A stretch of DNA of 41,672 nt from Methylophaga sp. (GTDB lineage Bacteria; Pseudomonadota; Gammaproteobacteria; Nitrosococcales; Methylophagaceae): assembly GCA_002733715.2 (NCBI GenBank), contig NVWQ02000028.1, positions 1 through 41,672 of the forward strand, read 5' to 3'. The notes beneath the pieces were generated by a model. It was not told the DNA's origin, searched no databases, and saw only the letters and a program-made list of their open reading frames with translations. Position 1 is the first letter of the stretch, and each line of letters opens with the position of its first letter. Positions 9,306 through 29,850 of this stretch are shown here, one piece after another. The position numbers were made by a program, and so were the translations under genes.

Positions 9306-11477
9306 ATGACTGCTAAGCAACTGTTATCTGACGATATTATAAAAATCATTGAAGCAAGCCATCATGATCCGTTTTCTGTACTTGGTGCGCATCAAAATGG
9401 GGCGGAAACAACCGTTACTGTCTTCTTACCTGACACGCATAAAGCATGGTTAGACAATGACTTGATATTAAAGCGCCTTGAAGGAACGGATGTTTTTCAA
9501 TGGACCGGTGACACTAAAAAATTGAGCAAGCCTTATGTTGTTCATCGTTTAGCGGGCAATGGCGCACCTGTTAGCCGCCATGACCCTTATTGCTTTTTAC
9601 CGCAATTATCAGAGTTTGATTTACACCTATTTGCTGAAGGAAAACATTGGCATGCCTATCGAATTTTAGGCGCGCATGAGCATGTGGTCGATGGCGTTGA
9701 AGGTATATTATTTGCCACTTGGGCGCCTAGTGCACAACGCGTTAGTGTTGTCGGTGACTTTAATCAATGGGATGGCCGTCAGCACCCTATGCGCGTGCGT
9801 GGCAACAGTGGTGTATGGGAATCATTTATTCCTGGTATCGAAGCGAAAGAAATATATAAATATGAAATCAAAAATAATGATGGTTCGCTGCATTCAAAAA
9901 TGGATCCTTATGGACAACAAGCAGAATTACGACCTGCCACCGGCTCAGTTGTAGCAGCTGAAAGTAAGCATGACTGGCAAGATGCTGAGTGGATGTCAAA
10001 ACGTGAAAAAGCAGAATGGTTGCATACACCCCACTCTGTTTATGAAGTACATATGGGCTCATGGCGTCGCAATGATGATGGCGGCTTCTTAACCTATCGT
10101 GAAATGGCCGAACAAATGGTGCCCTATGTTAAAGAGTTAGGCTTCACTCATATTGAATTATTACCTGTCACTGAACATCCTCTTGATATTTCTTGGGGGT
10201 ATCAAACAACGGGTTATTTTGCCCCTACTAGCCGCTTTGGTAGCCCTGATGATTTCCGTTATTTTATAGATCAATGCCATCAAAATGATATCGGTATTAT
10301 CCTTGATTGGGTGCCAGGCCATTTCCCGAAAGATGCACATGGTTTGGCTCGCTTTGATGGTAGTGCACTGTATGAACATGCCGATCCACGTCAAGGTGAA
10401 CACCAAGACTGGGGCACATACATCTTCAACTATGGCCGAAGTGAAGTCACTAACTTTTTGTTATCTAGTGCTTTTTACTGGCTAGAAGAATTCCATATTG
10501 ATGGCTTACGTGTTGATGCGGTGGCATCAATGCTCTATCTTGATTATTCACGTGAAGAAGGTCAGTGGGTGCCTAATCAGCATGGTGGTCGTGAGAACTT
10601 AGAAGTGATTGAATTCTTAAAACATATGAATGTAGTGTTGCATCAAGAACATCCTGGTTGTTTAATTGCAGCTGAAGAATCAACTTCTTATCCAATGGTT
10701 TCTCGCCCAGTTTCAATGGGGGGCTTAGGCTTCTCAATGAAGTGGAATATGGGTTGGATGCACGATATTCTTGAATATATGAAGCAAGATGCAATACACC
10801 GCCAATATCATCATGATTCACTGACTTTTGGCCTACTTTACGCCTTTACTGAAAATTTTGTATTACCGTTTTCACATGATGAAGTGGTGCACGGTAAAAA
10901 ATCGATGGTAAACAAGATGCCGGGGGATGAATGGCAACGCTTTGCTAACTTACGTTTGCTTTACACAATGATGTTTACCTATCCCGGTAAAAAATTATTA
11001 TTTATGGGCTGTGAGTTTGCTCAAGGCACCGAATGGGACTGTGAAAGTACTTTAGACTGGTATACGCTCGATTATCCACTTCATAGCGGCATGAAAACAC
11101 TGGTTAGTGATCTAAATAAACTTTATACCAATACACCCGCATTATATCGCCATGAATTTGAGCCACAAGGTTTTGAGTGGCTAGATTGTAATGACCGCGA
11201 ACAATCAATATTAAGTTATATTCGTAGAGACGGAGTAGAATATGTCATTTCTATCTTTAACTTCACACCTGTACCTCGTGAAACTTATCGAGTAGGCGTG
11301 CCTGAATTAGGTAACTATAAAGTGTTATTGAACTCTGATTCTGAGTTTTATGGTGGTAGCAATATCGGTAATGATCACGAATTAACCGCACAGGATGTGC
11401 CTTGGTCAGACAAACCTTTCTCTATAGAATTGAACCTTCCACCTTTGGCGGGGGTTGTTCTCCAAAAAGTATTATAA
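9306..11477 (+). CDS. glgB: 1,4-alpha-glucan branching enzyme (GH13)
   Basis: Introduces alpha-1,6 branches in glycogen. The protein of 723 aa has the two N-terminal CBM48-like modules (N1 at about 10-110, N2 at about 120-220), a GH13 barrel, and a C-terminal beta domain. The catalytic nucleophile is Asp404 in [10 protein letters not shown], the acid/base is Glu457 in AAEESTSYP, and the transition-state Asp lies in [10 protein letters not shown]. The length is close to the 728 aa E. coli enzyme. It is transcribed alone, divergent from glgC, and ends at a strong bidirectional terminator shared with pgi. Confidence 0.98.
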
Positions 11478-23793: not shown

Positions 23794-24432
23794 TTATCTC
23801 AAAAATTGTAAATAAGGATTACTGGCTAATTCTTGTGCCAGCGTTGTAACAGGTCCATGACCGCTGTGTACTTGTAGCTTACCAGATAATGTCATTAACT
23901 TTGCTAAACTTTTTTGTGCTAGCGCGGAATCACCCATTGGCAAATCAGTCCTACCTACACTGCCTGCAAATAAAGTATCACCCACAAAAATATCAGATTC
24001 ATTATAGTAGCAACCCTGACCGGGAGTGTGGCCTGGCGTTGAAATAAAGTGCAGCACCGTTTCGCCTAATTTAATCTCGTCTCCATCATCCACTAGCTGA
24101 TCAATTCGGCCACAAGGACGATTCATATGCGGTGCACCAAACCATGTTCCCTGCTCTGGTAATGTTTCAAATAAGGGTATTTCTAATCGAGGTAAATAGG
24201 TAGGGACATCAAATGCTTGCTGCAATGCTACTAATGCACCGGCATGATCTAAGTGCGCATGCGTCAGCAAAATCATCTGAATATCAGGGCTAGGCTGTAA
24301 CGCTTGCAAGCGTTCAACCAAATCATCACTTTCACCTGTGTCAATAATAGCACAGGCTCCCGTTGCCAAATCTTTAATTAAGTAGGTATTAACCTGAAAT
24401 GCCCCAACGGTGAGGCATTTAGTTTCAATCAT
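23794..24432 (-). CDS. MBL-fold metallohydrolase (glyoxalase II-like)
   Basis: Metallo-beta-lactamase fold protein of 212 aa. The metal motif T-HAHLDH (residues 57-63) and the later FISTPGHTPGQGCYY and HSGHGP segments are those of the hydroxyacylglutathione-hydrolase-like YcbL/GloB group. The substrate is not determined by sequence. The start forms an ATGA overlap with the stop of the WY-repeat gene upstream, so translation is probably coupled. Confidence 0.93.
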   Translation of the reverse strand: MIETKCLTVGAFQVNTYLIKDLATGACAIIDTGESDDLVERLQALQPSPDIQMILLTHAHLDHAGALVALQQAFDVPTYLPRLEIPLFETLPEQGTWFGAPHMNRPCGRIDQLVDDGDEIKLGETVLHFISTPGHTPGQGCYYNESDIFVGDTLFAGSVGRTDLPMGDSALAQKSLAKLMTLSGKLQVHSGHGPVTTLAQELASNPYLQFLR

Positions 24433-25151
24433 TTATTGCTGTCATACCACTTTTTCTGACCTTCACGTGTAGCTTCAAGATTGGCCTCATACCATTTTTG
24501 CTTTTCAGCTTTCTTACGTGTAAGAGCAAGATTAGCCCTATACCATTTTTGTTTGGCATCAGCATATTGATCTACATGCGTATTAGCTTCATACCACTTT
24601 TTATTGTCCATATTTGTGCGGGCAATTTCAAGGTTGGCCTTATACCATTTTTTCTTTTGTTCCATATGTGGATCAGCATAAATATTGGCTTCATACCATG
24701 GCTGACGGGCCTCTTTTTCTACTTGCTGATTAGCCTCATACCATTTCTGTTTCGCCGCTCTCGCTATTTCAAGGTTTGCTCTATACCATTTCCTCTTTGT
24801 TTCCATATGAGGATCAAAGTGTGTATTAGCTTCATACCATGGTTGACTTGTTTTATCTGTCGGTTGCTTGCTCGCCTCATACCATTTGGTACGCTCTTCC
24901 CTAATTGAATCTACCGCAACTTTTAAATTAGCTTCATACCACTTCTTCTTGGCATCTAAATGGCCAGCCAAATTAGCTTCATACCAAGGTTTACTAGTAT
25001 GTGTAGCCTTCTTATTGGTTTCATACCAATGTTCTTTCGGTAGTGTCGTCCCTACACTTTCATTAGCTTTGTACCATTTTTTACGACTTTCACGGGCAGT
25101 CTTTAAATTCGCTTCGTACCACTTTTCTTTTATATCCATTGTTGTTGTCAT
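24429..25151 (-). CDS. WY-repeat protein with 15 copies of a K/P-W-Y-E-A-N unit (unknown function)
   Basis: I do not recognise a family. The 240 aa protein is almost entirely a tandem array. Trp occurs exactly 15 times, at residues 11, 26, 42, 56, 71, 90, 105, 122, 137, 152, 169, 186, 203, 220 and 235, each followed by Tyr and mostly by E/K/R-A-N. The spacing is 14-19 residues, mainly 15 or 17. There is no Cys and no signal peptide; Lys is abundant. A larger unit of about 47 residues is duplicated (from Trp105 and from Trp152). The ATG at 25151 has a good GAGG ribosome site. It leads an operon with the MBL hydrolase and carbonic anhydrase. The reverse-strand frames are only shadows. Helical solenoid, ligand-binding array or repeat precursor are possibilities. 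Confidence 0.88.
   Translation of the reverse strand: MTTTMDIKEKWYEANLKTARESRKKWYKANESVGTTLPKEHWYETNKKATHTSKPWYEANLAGHLDAKKKWYEANLKVAVDSIREERTKWYEASKQPTDKTSQPWYEANTHFDPHMETKRKWYRANLEIARAAKQKWYEANQQVEKEARQPWYEANIYADPHMEQKKKWYKANLEIARTNMDNKKWYEANTHVDQYADAKQKWYRANLALTRKKAEKQKWYEANLEATREGQKKWYDSNK
24438..25127 (-). repeat. Degenerate coding tandem repeat (about 45-51 bp unit)
   Basis: The coding stretch shows repeated AAATGGTATGAAGC-type blocks on the minus strand (TTCATACCA on the plus strand), one per repeat. Units are mostly 45 or 51 bases, with intervening DNA diverged. The 141-base step between the two duplicated three-unit blocks suggests growth by unequal duplication. Confidence 0.85.
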
Positions 25152-25276: not shown

Positions 25277-25699
25277 TTATTCAAAACAATGCAGTTCAGC
25301 TTTTAACTGCTGCAACATACTAATTTTCTGTTCAACATTTAACATACGTCGGTTTTCTTTTTCTTCAACCATTGATGAATACGTTAAATAGCCTAATCCG
25401 AGCAATCCTCCTACAATTGGAATTGAATCCGCTGTGATCAGGGTAACCGCCATGGTATTAGTGTTGTCTTCATAAAACTTATCTTTATAGGTGTAACGAT
25501 AAGGATGCAAATAGCGAATGGTGTTATCTAGCTCAATACAATTTAACTGTTTTTGTTGCTGTGTCGCTTCAACTATCGGTGGTTCGAAGTAAATAGGCTC
25601 AATGGATATCGGTGGCATCGGAACATCGGCTTCAACTACAGGTAAAAATAACATTAAGTTAACGGCCGCTAAGCAAGCTATACCTCGTATAGTTTTCAT
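25277..25699 (-). CDS. Uncharacterised exported protein downstream of the sensor kinase
   Basis: I do not recognise this 140 aa protein. The N-terminal 24 residues look like a signal peptide (MKTIRGIACLAAVNLMLFLP...EA). A Pro-rich stretch PMPPISIEPIYFEPPIVE follows. A hydrophobic segment SIPIVGGLLGLGYLTYSS may be a membrane span near residues 91-108, and a charged helical C-terminus ends the protein. Two Cys in the mature part (residues 54 and 138) could form a disulfide. It starts 31 bases after the pdsS-like kinase stop on the same strand, so it belongs to that operon. No LPxTG-like motif is seen. Confidence 0.75.
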   Translation of the reverse strand: MKTIRGIACLAAVNLMLFLPVVEADVPMPPISIEPIYFEPPIVEATQQQKQLNCIELDNTIRYLHPYRYTYKDKFYEDNTNTMAVTLITADSIPIVGGLLGLGYLTYSSMVEEKENRRMLNVEQKISMLQQLKAELHCFE

Positions 25700-25730
25700 T
25701 GTGATAACACTCCATAAATTTATCGTATGA

Positions 25731-27845
25731 TCATGTTATCGGCAACTCAATCTGAAACTCTACTCCTTGTTGCCAATTTTGAGCGACAACTTGCCCGCCA
25801 TGCTGCTGCACAATAAGTTTGACAATATATAAACCTAAACCTAAATGAGGGATCTTCGACTGAGTAACTGCTTCACGAATAGAGACCATAGGTTGAAATA
25901 ATTGTTGTTCCATATTTTCAGGTAGTGATGCTCCTGAGTTTTTGACTATAAGAATAGCGGTGTTTAATTTATGAGGCTTTTCAAGGCTTATCACTATTGA
26001 TGTTTCAGGCAGGTGAAAATCAACTGCATTCGCAATCAATTTATCTAGCATTTGTACAATTAACTCTTGGCAACCTTTTATCTCAATAGCGTCTTCTGCT
26101 AAATTAAATTCAAATGAGACGTGTCGATGAAGATCTTGGTAAACAGGTGCAACATCTTTTAATAAGGCCGTTAAGTTAAACACTTCTAACGCTACAGTAT
26201 TAACGGTTTGTTCTAGCCGGCTTGCTTCACTCATTCTCGCGATAATATTATTGAGCCGTTCGCTACCTGAGCGGGCACGATCAATATAAACTTGGCTATT
26301 TTCAGGTGATTGCTCCAAGTGCTCTAGTGAAGTCCTAATCACCGCAACCGGAGTGCGTAATTCATGTGTCAATCGTGATGATAACGCTTCTAAATAATGG
26401 GTATATAAACCCAACCGTTCAAAAAGCTGTTCAAACCCTTGCCGTAACTCACCTATCTCATCATATTCAGCACGTTGCTTGAGCACACCAGACATGCGGC
26501 CATCGCCACTCACTATGGCAGAAACATCACGATTTAATCGCCTAATCCTAAAAGAAAGTCGGCTCGCAAAACCAATGAGAACAATGAAGGCTACAGCCAT
26601 CACCCATAAACTAGTATTGAGTAAGGTTTTCACCGCTTTATTCTGTAAGCCCATTATAGTATTGGTGTTTTTTTCTACAACAACAACACCTACATTTATC
26701 CCATCTAATAAAATAGGTTGAGCTGCCACAATAACAGTTTGCTCACTACCTCCTATCTGTCGACGTTCTGTAGCTGCTTTGCCCATTAGTGCTGTTTGTA
26801 CCGCATCACCCTTAAAAACAGCCCGCTCGTGTCGCAATGATTCATCATCTGATACCGCAATTTCTAAAAACAAGTTATAAAAAAAATCTAGCAATGAATT
26901 TAACGGTTGTTCGGCAACTAATACTTCGCCTTGCCCCGCACTTGCAACCGTGTTGCGATTATTATCTATCAACCAAATTCTGGTTCCCTCTGTCGCCATC
27001 TCTGACAATACTTCTGCAAGCTGCGTGGAGGGCAATAGCAAATCAGCAAAAAGTGCACTATCACGTACATCTCCTATTCCAATAACTTGGGGTTCTGCTT
27101 CATTTTTATCAACATCAATAACGGCTATCGCTATCGACGAATCAATCATTTCTTCCGGTAAAGCAAGTTCTAAGCGATAGCCATATAATGATAACTGCCA
27201 TGCAGCTTTAATACCGTTTTGTCTTCCTATTACTACTGGGTCGAGATAACTTCCTATGTATTCAAAGGCATTGATTTGACCTGGTGCGCTTGCTGATAAT
27301 AAATAACGACGGACACGCTGTTTGTTATCCACAACAGCCAAAACAATGGCATCACCACCATGTCGATTTTGTATGCGTGGATCACGAAATACTATCGAAT
27401 CATCAACCACATCCAACATCATTATTAAAGATCGTTGTTGTTTCGCCCATAAATAGCGCGCTGTCACATCTTGTGGATCAATTTTATGTCCATAGGACAA
27501 TTGGTTCTCAACTGGAAATGTCTGCATTAAACCTTTGAGATCTGCCCATTCACTTTGGTAGCCATCAATCACAATCGGGCTAGCAAGCATCGATACAGCT
27601 ATTTTTTCTGTCCGGGTCTTATGCTCTAAAAGCTCAACGCGTTCAATTAACGGCTCAGCATGTTGTGCTATCAATATGGCGCTGGCTTTAGCAATAGTTG
27701 CCATTGATTGTGCTTGTTGCTGCTGCAACAAATCTTCCATTGCTTGGATATAACGCACACCCAACCAAGGTAAAAGCAGCAAAACTAATGAAACCAGTAA
27801 TAACTTGCTTCGTAACTTTAATTTTATTGCAGGCCAAATACTCAT
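25731..27845 (-). CDS. pdsS: Sensor histidine kinase of the proteobacterial dedicated sortase system type (PdsS-like)
   Basis: A 704 aa membrane kinase. The first membrane span is at about residues 14-31. A large periplasmic sensor region follows, with a CBM9-like block VIDGYQSEWADL, then a second span near residues 405-425 and a HAMP-type linker. The HisKA domain has phospho-acceptor His494 in LTHELRTPV, and the HATPase domain ends in GLGLYIVKLIVQQHGG. The size and CBM9-like sensor match the dedicated-sortase-system kinases of marine proteobacteria (TIGR03785, from memory of the family). It lies 9 bases after the response regulator gene. Confidence 0.88.
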   Translation of the reverse strand: MSIWPAIKLKLRSKLLLVSLVLLLLPWLGVRYIQAMEDLLQQQQAQSMATIAKASAILIAQHAEPLIERVELLEHKTRTEKIAVSMLASPIVIDGYQSEWADLKGLMQTFPVENQLSYGHKIDPQDVTARYLWAKQQRSLIMMLDVVDDSIVFRDPRIQNRHGGDAIVLAVVDNKQRVRRYLLSASAPGQINAFEYIGSYLDPVVIGRQNGIKAAWQLSLYGYRLELALPEEMIDSSIAIAVIDVDKNEAEPQVIGIGDVRDSALFADLLLPSTQLAEVLSEMATEGTRIWLIDNNRNTVASAGQGEVLVAEQPLNSLLDFFYNLFLEIAVSDDESLRHERAVFKGDAVQTALMGKAATERRQIGGSEQTVIVAAQPILLDGINVGVVVVEKNTNTIMGLQNKAVKTLLNTSLWVMAVAFIVLIGFASRLSFRIRRLNRDVSAIVSGDGRMSGVLKQRAEYDEIGELRQGFEQLFERLGLYTHYLEALSSRLTHELRTPVAVIRTSLEHLEQSPENSQVYIDRARSGSERLNNIIARMSEASRLEQTVNTVALEVFNLTALLKDVAPVYQDLHRHVSFEFNLAEDAIEIKGCQELIVQMLDKLIANAVDFHLPETSIVISLEKPHKLNTAILIVKNSGASLPENMEQQLFQPMVSIREAVTQSKIPHLGLGLYIVKLIVQQHGGQVVAQNWQQGVEFQIELPIT

Positions 27846-27854
27846 TAATAACCG

Positions 27855-28553
27855 TTATTTTTGTTGCTCGATCCAACGGTATCCCAGACCATATACCGTT
27901 TCAATTGCTGAGAAATCTGCATCAACTACTTGGAATTTTTTACGAATTCGTTTTATATGTGAGCTAATCGTGTCTTCGTCAACGTAAATATTGGCCGCCT
28001 GCATTAATTGCTCTCGTGTTTTAACGTGACCCACAAAACGCACTAGGGCATGCACTAACCAAAATTCTGTAACAGTCAAAGCTACTGGCTTATTATTAAA
28101 ATTTACTGCCATCCTATCAGCATCTAATACTAAATCACCTTGAATAATTAAATCTGCTTCTTTAGCGGGTATTTTCCTTGATTCTAATCGGCGAAATAAT
28201 GCAGCAATGCGCGCTTGCAAATGTGATAAGCCAATATCCTTAGTCAAATAATCATCCGCACCAAGACGAAATCCAGACACGGTATCTAACTCATTATCAC
28301 GAGCAGTAAGAAAAATAATGGGGAGCGTTTCTGACATGGCTCTTAGATCGCGGCATAAATCAAAGCCACCTTCAGGTTCATCATTAAGACCAATATCAAT
28401 AATGGCTAATTCGGGCAGTCGCTGCTGAAAGGCATCATAGGCAGATTGCCTATTTGCATACGTGCTCACTTCATACCCTTGGCGTCTTAACGCTTCGGCA
28501 TAATTATCTCTAATATCAGGCTCATCTTCAACAATTGCGATCCTACGCCCCAT
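27855..28553 (-). CDS. pdsR: OmpR-type response regulator (PdsR-like)
   Basis: A 232 aa two-component regulator. The receiver domain has the acidic pair in IVEDEPD, phospho-acceptor Asp53 in LAIIDIGLND, and the Thr/Lys switch residues in FLTARD and LTKD. A C-terminal winged-helix DNA-binding domain follows, with VTVTEFWLVHALV-like helices and ISSHIKRIRKKF. It is first in an operon with the pdsS-like kinase and the unknown exported protein. It diverges from the OmpA-like gene, which is a probable target. The name rests on resemblance to the dedicated-sortase regulator family and on the neighbours. Confidence 0.88.
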   Translation of the reverse strand: MGRRIAIVEDEPDIRDNYAEALRRQGYEVSTYANRQSAYDAFQQRLPELAIIDIGLNDEPEGGFDLCRDLRAMSETLPIIFLTARDNELDTVSGFRLGADDYLTKDIGLSHLQARIAALFRRLESRKIPAKEADLIIQGDLVLDADRMAVNFNNKPVALTVTEFWLVHALVRFVGHVKTREQLMQAANIYVDEDTISSHIKRIRKKFQVVDADFSAIETVYGLGYRWIEQQK

Positions 28554-28748
28554 TATTTTCTCCCATTGCCATATTTCTGCCTTATTTTATCACCACATTG
28601 CCAAGATCACGACGCGTTGTTGCCACTTCACTGCGGTTAAATAGTCACCACTCGGCGCAGAAATGGAGTTCAACACCCTCCTCTATTTGCACAGTTCCAT
28701 GTGTCATGGATGACCCGCTGAACCAATAACAACCACAAGGATCTTATT

Positions 28749-29489
28749 ATGCATACAAAAACACTATTATGTAGCTTATTACTCATTGCTAGCCCTGCAA
28801 TTATGGCAAACCCAATTTACCAGCCTGAATCCGCTAGTAGTTCACATCATGAAGCAACTGCTGGCGGTGTAGGTTTAGTTGCCGGCACCCTTATTGCCGG
28901 TCCATTTGGCGCTATTATTGGTGGCTCTCTAGGTGTTATGGCAGGCAACCAACAAAGTAAAGCTGAAACTATAACAGAGCAACAACATTTTATTGCAAAA
29001 CTTGAGTCCGATATAGATCTTATAACGACCGAATTATCGCAATCAAAATTACACGTTTCTCAATTAGAATCTAACCACCAGCAGCTACAAAATGAATTTA
29101 ATCAGTCACAGCAAACCTATGGCGACGATATTCAGCAATTTATAACTAGTTATCAGTTTGATGTCTATTTTCTAAGCAATAGTGATGCTATTGATTCACA
29201 TGCTCAGCAAGGATTGTTAAAACTAGCTGAGTTATTAAAAAACAACCCTAGTATTGAAGCAAGTATTGAGGCGCATAGTGATTGGCGCGGTAGTAATGAT
29301 AATAATTACAAATTAGCAAGAACTAGACTTGATTCTATTGAAAAACATTTATCTTTGAAAGGGGCAAATAGCTCACAATTATTGACTACAAATTATGGTG
29401 AAAGCAAGAATGTAAATAATGGGTCATGGGGAGAAGAGTTATTTTATGACCGAAGAGTAACAATTACATTAAATTTCTTTGGGGGGTAG
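28749..29489 (+). CDS. pdsO: OmpA-family protein, sortase-system PdsO-like
   Basis: A 246 aa exported protein. The signal peptide is cleaved near ASPAIMA-NP. A Gly-rich hydrophobic segment AGTLIAGPFGAIIGGSLGVMAG (glycine-zipper type) follows, then a coiled coil near residues 80-120. The C-terminal OmpA/MotB-like peptidoglycan-binding domain has the block IEASIEAHSDWRGSNDNNYKLARTR split around residues 175-200. This architecture matches the sortase-associated OmpA-like PdsO proteins. It diverges from pdsR with 195 bases between, which holds no gene. Confidence 0.86.
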   Translation: MHTKTLLCSLLLIASPAIMANPIYQPESASSSHHEATAGGVGLVAGTLIAGPFGAIIGGSLGVMAGNQQSKAETITEQQHFIAKLESDIDLITTELSQSKLHVSQLESNHQQLQNEFNQSQQTYGDDIQQFITSYQFDVYFLSNSDAIDSHAQQGLLKLAELLKNNPSIEASIEAHSDWRGSNDNNYKLARTRLDSIEKHLSLKGANSSQLLTTNYGESKNVNNGSWGEELFYDRRVTITLNFFGG

Positions 29490-29850
29490 CGTTAGTATGA
29501 GTCAGTATTGTTCGATACTGATTTAATATACCAAAGTGAAATGAAGTTGCAGATATTTTAACAAAGCCCGTCATTGATCCTTCGGTTACTACGTTTCCGC
29601 GAAAGCGGGAATCCAACGATAGTAGCTATTTACACTGCCCATGGAGCACCGTATAACCAAGACTCCGGCTAAGCTTGTGCTCAGCTTGACTGGGTAAGCC
29701 TGCCGGAGTGACGGAAGGAATAAGAATGCACACATTGAATGATCACGGGTATATACCCAAGCTACTTGAAGATGGATGATTCAGCATGGTAAAGTATCTT
29801 TGCTATGGAACGCTACCTACAACTTATTTACTCGTTACGGAGCTATAATA
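29490..29850. repeat. Gene-free spacer with composite dispersed repeats
   Basis: No gene is seen in these 361 bases, and at least three repeat fragments are present. One is a CCGTCAT...GTGACGG boundary pair (about 29573-29715) enclosing a hairpin TTTCCGC-GAAA-GCGGGAA. The second is a stem ACTCCGGC (29662-29669) / GCCGGAGT (29702-29709). The third is a terminus TTGAATGATCACGGGTATATA (29735-29755), matching the end of the 166 bp element at 18963-19128. It runs directly into TATACCCAAGCTACTTGAAGATG, itself like a repeat family seen in other gammaproteobacteria. These look like nested small mobile or palindromic elements. Confidence 0.7.

Follow-up and report, generated by a model that had tools for sequence, protein, structure and literature searches.

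The stretch of DNA analysed here, which we will refer to as the window, is an entire 41.7-kb contig (C26) of the 2.83-Mb draft genome of a Methylophaga species (G000), and it contains a set of genes resembling the regulatory and accessory part of the proteobacterial dedicated sortase (Pds) system. As a preliminary description of this stretch had stated, a pdsO-like gene on the forward strand is divergent from four genes on the reverse strand, which code for the response regulator PdsR, a sensor histidine kinase, a small exported protein and a WY-repeat protein (Table 1). The likeness to Pds components that had been noted for three of these proteins was scored with hidden Markov models. It stands without reservation for the regulator, which exceeds the NCBIfam cut-off for TIGR03787 (373.2 vs. 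335.7 bits), and in part for the other two proteins, which match Pds families best but do not reach the cut-offs. As the kinase and the OmpA-like protein are below these curated values, they are named here PdsS-like and PdsO-like. The kinase covers the whole of the TIGR03785 profile (positions 1–703 of 703) and is about 400 bits ahead of the next family, and the PdsO-like protein contains an OmpA C-terminal domain (PF00691) together with a signal peptide and a glycine-rich stretch that were judged by eye. Among the matches listed for PdsR, its closest named relatives are from Methylophaga sp. NORP53 (94% identity), HyVt-379 and 42_25_T18 (84% each), in accordance with which the family is taken to be Methylophagaceae.

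Neither a sortase nor a sortase target had been seen in the window, and the first option offered in the preliminary description was that the sortase part is located elsewhere. This option proved to be the answer. The sole class GN sortase and the sole target above the cut-off that were found in the genome are present on another contig (C35), where the sortase gene (TIGR03784, 214.2 bits vs. a cut-off of 158.25) is located directly after that of a target with von Willebrand A (vWA) and VIT domains (TIGR03788, 792.9 bits vs. 551.65). Hence, the sortase is not lost. At its C-terminus, the target has LPQTATS followed by a hydrophobic stretch and then RWRKA, which constitute an LPxTG-like sorting signal, and the sortase carries His, Cys (TLVTC) and Arg motifs; we take the roles of these sortase and sorting motifs to be the usual ones. 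Counterparts of all five Pds components are present in this genome, and those of the sortase, target and regulator are above their cut-offs.

The same arrangement is observed in other members of the window's family, of which 57 genomes were compared. PdsR was detected in 10 of these genomes and the sortase in 12 (11 above the cut-off). All 10 genomes with PdsR also possess a sortase (Fisher p = 1.5e-9), always on a different contig, and even if the contigs were abutting, the distance between pdsR and the sortase gene would be at least 10.7–166 kb in these 10 genomes. The order of pdsO and the divergent pdsR, pdsS, exported and WY-repeat genes was retained in all nine Pds relatives that were read, and the target-sortase pair adjoins a glutathione synthetase gene, with ApbE nearby, in all 11 family genomes containing a typical pair. 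Based upon these observations, we infer that the split is old, the separation of the target-sortase pair from pdsO predating the divergence of the two genera that were sampled in this family. Glutathione synthetase was also considered as a general partner of the Pds system, and it was rejected as such, there being no tblastn match to it at 1e-5 in 35 sortase loci of other lineages. Two genomes with a sortase had no PdsR hit. In G010, a contig opens with the final 154 residues of a pdsS-like kinase, and the exported and WY-repeat genes come next; as the kinase is broken at this point, its pdsR is considered to lie off the edge. In G021 (L051, G021:C3), the sortase-target pair is diverged and the target is without an LPxTG-like end.

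The two loci are connected by a 24-nt box, which we propose to be the PdsR operator. Its pattern is GCC(A/T)(C/T)A(A/T)T...TC(G/A)..A..T..(C/T)C, where the GCC and the final (G/other)CC are 21 nt apart, and it is found in the pdsO/pdsR intergenic region of all 10 genomes as well as upstream of the target-sortase genes in all 11 readable pairs. A position weight matrix (PWM) was trained on the 10 intergenic sites alone and used to scan both strands of 22 family loci (432,678 bases). After the training sites, the highest ranks were occupied by the 11 target promoters (17.9–31.7 bits), all of them facing the target, and the next best site scored 11.4 bits. The maximum obtained with shuffled target upstream regions (200 first-order Markov samples for each) was 12.3 bits. 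The spacing is likewise conserved. With the offset counted from the first base of GCC and a hexamer defined by at least four of six matches to TATAAT, all 21 family promoters possess a −10-like hexamer (TTTAAT, TTAAAT, TGTAAT or TGAAAT) at offset 58, and it is the best one in 16. On C35, the hexamer of the target promoter at this offset reads TGTAAT. If transcription starts 7 nt past the hexamer, the box would lie at about −70 to −47, which is the usual ground for activators of the OmpR family.

A search of 21 whole genomes with the exact pattern gave 22 matches, comprising the 10 pdsO sites, the 11 target sites and one more in G002. Each Pds genome contributes two matches (three in G002) and G010 contributes one, and those of the 2.83-Mb genome of the window are exactly the pdsO and target sites. 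No exact match was found in the whole genomes of 10 Pds-less relatives, and matches with one mismatch are at a similar low level in Pds and Pds-less genomes. In G021 no box was found on the contig, but this contig extends only 67–283 nt ahead of the target, not far enough for the absence to count; this genome was dropped as a negative control, as were G193 and G236 (less than 125 nt before the first aligned target residue). The entries listed by literature searches showed nothing on the regulation of PdsRS or on this box.

Table 1. Features of the two loci in the Methylophaga genome (positions in the window unless a contig is named)
Feature	Position	Strand	Remarks
pdsO-like gene	28749..29489	+	246 aa; TIGR03789, 132.2 bits; PF00691 OmpA
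pdsR, OmpR-family response regulator	27855..28553	-	232 aa; TIGR03787, 373.2 bits
pdsS-like sensor histidine kinase	25731..27845	-	704 aa; TIGR03785, 561.9 bits
Proposed PdsR operator (24-nt box), oriented towards pdsO	28579..28602	+	PWM scan; exact pattern match
-10-like hexamer TTAAAT, pdsO promoter	28637..28642	+	58 nt from box start; tied with another offset
Second box copy, upstream of target gene	G000:C35:7199-7222		PWM scan; exact pattern match
vWA/VIT target	G000:C35:7591-9435		TIGR03788
Class GN sortase	G000:C35:9630-10151		TIGR03784
Small exported protein	25277..25699	-	Neighbour only, no Pds part; in 51/57 family genomes
WY-repeat protein	24429..25151	-	Neighbour only, no Pds part; in 53/57 family genomes
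Spacer with short dispersed repeats	29490..29775	.	LonB-like protease gene in this interval in four Pds relatives

The occurrence of the box outside this family was examined in the best 80 of 553 PdsR relatives, a sample that is biased to near relatives because only these were kept; 77 of them are outside the family and, by record title, mostly Gammaproteobacteria. The region of up to 500 nt upstream of pdsR was scanned with a PWM built from all 21 family sites. In 68 of the 77 distant loci, the site upstream of pdsR outscored the rest of the locus. A site of more than 12 bits is present in 67 of the 77, and 61 of these 67 sites have the hexamer at offset 58, while at the other offsets tested (45–79) the share with a hexamer is at most 28%. 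The target side was examined in 23 sortase loci from genomes in which a PdsR-type hit is located elsewhere, and the target was verified in 18 of them. Twelve of these 18 loci are without another regulator hit nearby, and in every one of the 12 the best box of the locus is found at the start region of the target (9.6–38.0 bits). In 10 loci it precedes the target by no more than 300 nt. In the remaining two it begins 9 and 36 nt beyond the start that was extrapolated from the alignment, and the true start must therefore be further down. The hexamer is at offset 58 in 10 of the 12. Additionally, 12 sortase loci were considered from genomes in which PdsR was not detected; nine have a target with a readable upstream region, and a box-like site was found in one of these nine. 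These contrasts were defined post hoc with the data already seen.

Some further observations were made on such sortase loci. Five of the 23 split loci lack a verified target. In G137 (L172), with a sortase below the cut-off and no recognised target, a box is present 251 nt before the sortase gene with TTTAAT at offset 58, and in G388 (L186), which is similar in these two respects, a box lies about 340 nt before the sortase gene and has no hexamer; the other three showed no box. Where the genome gave no PdsR hit, eight of the sortase loci (L195, L196, L199, L200 and L203–L206) contain another response regulator and kinase, which suggests that a second sortase-linked two-component type exists in such loci.

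The preliminary description had remarked upon a CBM9-like sensor in the kinase. An AlphaFold2 model of kinase residues 30–420 has a mean confidence score (pLDDT) of 84.5 and matches CBM9 structures, with a Foldseek E-value of 2.8e-7 to 7nwo and a Z-score of 16.6 to 7nwn over 167 residues (root mean square deviation, rmsd, 2.7). Adjoining this CBM9-like part is a PAS/CACHE-like part, for which the extracellular domain of WalK gave a Z-score of 12.4 over 137 residues (rmsd 4.1). A Pfam search of the kinase gave no CBM9 match at an E-value of 0.1. As the model is confident and its main part matches CBM9, the remark is upheld at the level of the fold.

We consider it highly probable that the window contains the regulator half of a complete Pds system that is located at two loci, and that PdsR switches both pdsO and the target-sortase pair by means of the shared box. 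The parts list, the conserved split, the shared and oriented box, its fixed spacing and its rarity are the evidence for this, and from them we infer the binding and activation by PdsR. Judging from the protein families and the fold, the CBM9-like/PAS-like periplasmic part of PdsS most likely serves to sense a signal of the envelope or glycan type, and PdsS would then phosphorylate PdsR. Phosphorylated PdsR would bind to the box and activate two promoters of the sigma-70 type with identical geometry, one for pdsO and the other, a copy belonging to the pair itself, for the target and sortase genes on C35. Attachment of the vWA/VIT target to the envelope, at the LPQTA signal, would be the task of the sortase, and PdsO may serve as an outer-membrane/peptidoglycan accessory.

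A number of observations weigh against this interpretation. The kinase (561.9 vs. 612.2 bits for TIGR03785, the PdsS equivalog) and the PdsO-like protein (132.2 vs. 152.2 bits for TIGR03789, still its best family) are below the family cut-offs. The putative operator is a prediction from sequence; its exact pattern was fitted to the sites, and therefore only the near-absence of matches elsewhere is informative, and one exact match (G002:C83:28290) is unexplained. Offset 58 is tied with another offset in five of the 21 family promoters. Nine of the 77 distant PdsR loci are without a standout box, and among the 12 split loci discussed above the box is weak in three (9.6–11.4 bits) and the hexamer at offset 58 is missing from two. 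Of the six split loci with another regulator nearby, five have no box above 9 bits and one has a weak box (G150, 10.0 bits); in three of these six, the nearby regulators are PdsR hits under the cut-off. Conversely, the one box-like target site from a genome with no PdsR hit scored 19.5 bits (G444, 71% complete). Lastly, in G007 (L052, G007:C29, near 9755–10129) the sortase gene is frameshifted and below the cut-off, and the regulators, the target and both boxes look intact despite this; the frameshift could be an assembly error.

Among the other explanations, the one with the best claim, although an improbable one, is that the regulators are orphaned, with the box before the target belonging to another OmpR-family regulator and PdsRS no longer controlling the sortase. 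Other regulators of this kind do exist in the genome, where 24 places, PdsR included, match TIGR03787 at 1e-3, and the pairing of the box with PdsR is a predicted one. However, the box goes with PdsR, as is indicated by the lack of exact matches in the 10 Pds-less relatives and by the standout box in most of the distant PdsR loci. Less probable still is that the regulatory set has a new output, which was another option of the preliminary description, and that this output is the neighbouring exported protein together with the WY-repeat operon. In each of the 10 Pds genomes, the two genes lie behind pdsS in the same orientation, and read-through from the pdsRS operon is therefore possible. Nevertheless, of the 57 family genomes 51 have the exported protein and 53 have the WY-repeat protein, mostly without PdsR, which is present in just 10, no exact box is present ahead of them in the window, and the exact operator matches of this genome are limited to pdsO and the target. 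In five Pds-less relatives that were read, the exported gene is directly beside the WY-repeat gene, and the two follow PilZ either directly (two genomes) or past a LonB-like protease gene (three genomes). With or without Pds these are family-core genes, and the operon was rejected as a Pds output in this genome. Neither protein was matched by Pfam or NCBIfam at the E-values used.

The least probable explanation is that a sortase was deleted next to position 29490, through what had been called a repeat-rich spacer, and that the pair on C35 is a later and unrelated acquisition. The spacer is short and does contain dispersed repeats, and pieces of the spacer, 25–58 nt long, recur in the loci of relatives, but the repeats within it amount to just two direct repeats, both short and imperfect, and a single inverted one, which is weak. 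A gene is indeed missing at this place relative to four Pds relatives (G001, G002, G004 and G009); however, what these have between pdsO and PilZ is a LonB-like protease gene, and it is thus a protease gene, and not a sortase, that is missing near 29490. The protease gene is not in this interval in the window, G018, G007 or G006, and G005 has other open reading frames (ORFs) there. Of the nine Pds relatives that were read, the contig of G019 ends shortly past pdsO, and no sortase or target is present in the pdsO-side interval of the eight readable ones. Moreover, the sortase is never on the pdsR contig in the 10 family genomes with both, and the place of the C35 pair near glutathione synthetase and ApbE is kept across two genera. 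The deletion at 29490 was accordingly rejected. Two further observations concern other repetitive regions: the pdsR upstream region of G001 (L036) contains an insert with inverted ends, which look alike by eye, and L207:10557-14286 contains repetitive ORFs, presumably a CRISPR-like array followed by a Cas6f-like ORF (judged by eye).

It had further been assumed that in relatives the regulators sit with a sortase, and this holds to a limited extent. In a survey of 369 genomes drawn evenly from the window's class, a PdsR-type regulator was found in 71 (58 above the cut-off) and a sortase in 55 (48 above the cut-off). Both were present in 42 genomes, PdsR alone in 29 and the sortase alone in 13. 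In 23 of the 71 PdsR genomes the two are within 15 kb, in agreement with the assumption, but with a sortase in 42 of the 71 only, the premise is weaker than had been thought. When both are required to be above the cut-offs, 28 of the 58 PdsR genomes have a sortase, 17 of them within 15 kb. Some of the separate cases may be due to contig breaks. Among genomes that are at least 95% complete, 16 of 41 with PdsR above the cut-off have no sortase hit. In the distant sample, 64 PdsR loci are without a nearby sortase, and a genome-wide search of 50 of these, for which completeness is not told, revealed a sortase elsewhere in eight at 1e-10 (five above the cut-off).

The genes that face the box in the 77 distant loci are a glutathione S-transferase (GST) alone in 22, PdsO and GST in 20, PdsO alone in 11, target and sortase in eight, PdsO, target and sortase in four, and a sortase only in one; none was recognised in 11. 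The GST assignment was confirmed by Pfam for two proteins and made by tblastn for the others. An example of a locus facing GST is L069:8222-8881, in addition to which there are 41 further PdsR loci. GST and a sortase within 6 kb of each other were found in none of the 77 loci. In 22 genomes without a sortase hit, a box pattern is present exactly once in 20 and is absent from two, with one extra match having one mismatch, and the matched letters are the PdsR-side boxes. On a reading that we hold with about even confidence, PdsRS is not dedicated to sortases but is an envelope-sensing switch. Its promoter (box, 58 nt, −10) would be a single, highly conserved one, and its output would have been swapped between lineages; the outputs would be pdsO-target-sortase, the same genes over two loci, pdsO with GST, and GST alone.

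Sortases are, to our knowledge, unusual and little studied in Gram-negative bacteria. A proposed two-copy operator with fixed spacing makes the control of a sortase directly testable, and it enables the members of a scattered set of genes to be identified, by their promoter sequence, as belonging together. In addition, many genomes are seen to possess these "dedicated" regulators with no detectable sortase, facing a glutathione S-transferase instead.

In comparison with known systems, the genes described here are most like the Pds system (TIGR03784, TIGR03788, TIGR03785/TIGR03787 and TIGR03789), all five counterparts of which are present, including a target with an LPxTG-like signal. The location of the regulators and the sortase in one neighbourhood is usual for this system and not required. 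It is exemplified by the compact form, in which pdsO, target and sortase genes are divergent from pdsRS (L062, L072, L094 and L095), whereas here the regulators with pdsO and the target with the sortase are at two loci, each having a copy of the promoter. The PdsRS loci that face GST share the regulators, the box and the spacing with the present case, and they differ in that the box faces pdsO and GST, or GST. The arrangement also resembles the sigma-70 promoters that depend upon activators of the OmpR/PhoB family, in having a divergent promoter beside an OmpR-family regulator and a −10-like hexamer that is preceded, at a fixed distance, by a box; it differs from them in the sequence of the box, which is its own, and in the strict 58-nt spacing. 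The genes in the window and on C35 do not make up a new kind of system; they are the Pds system in a split variant, and what is new in it is the proposed operator.

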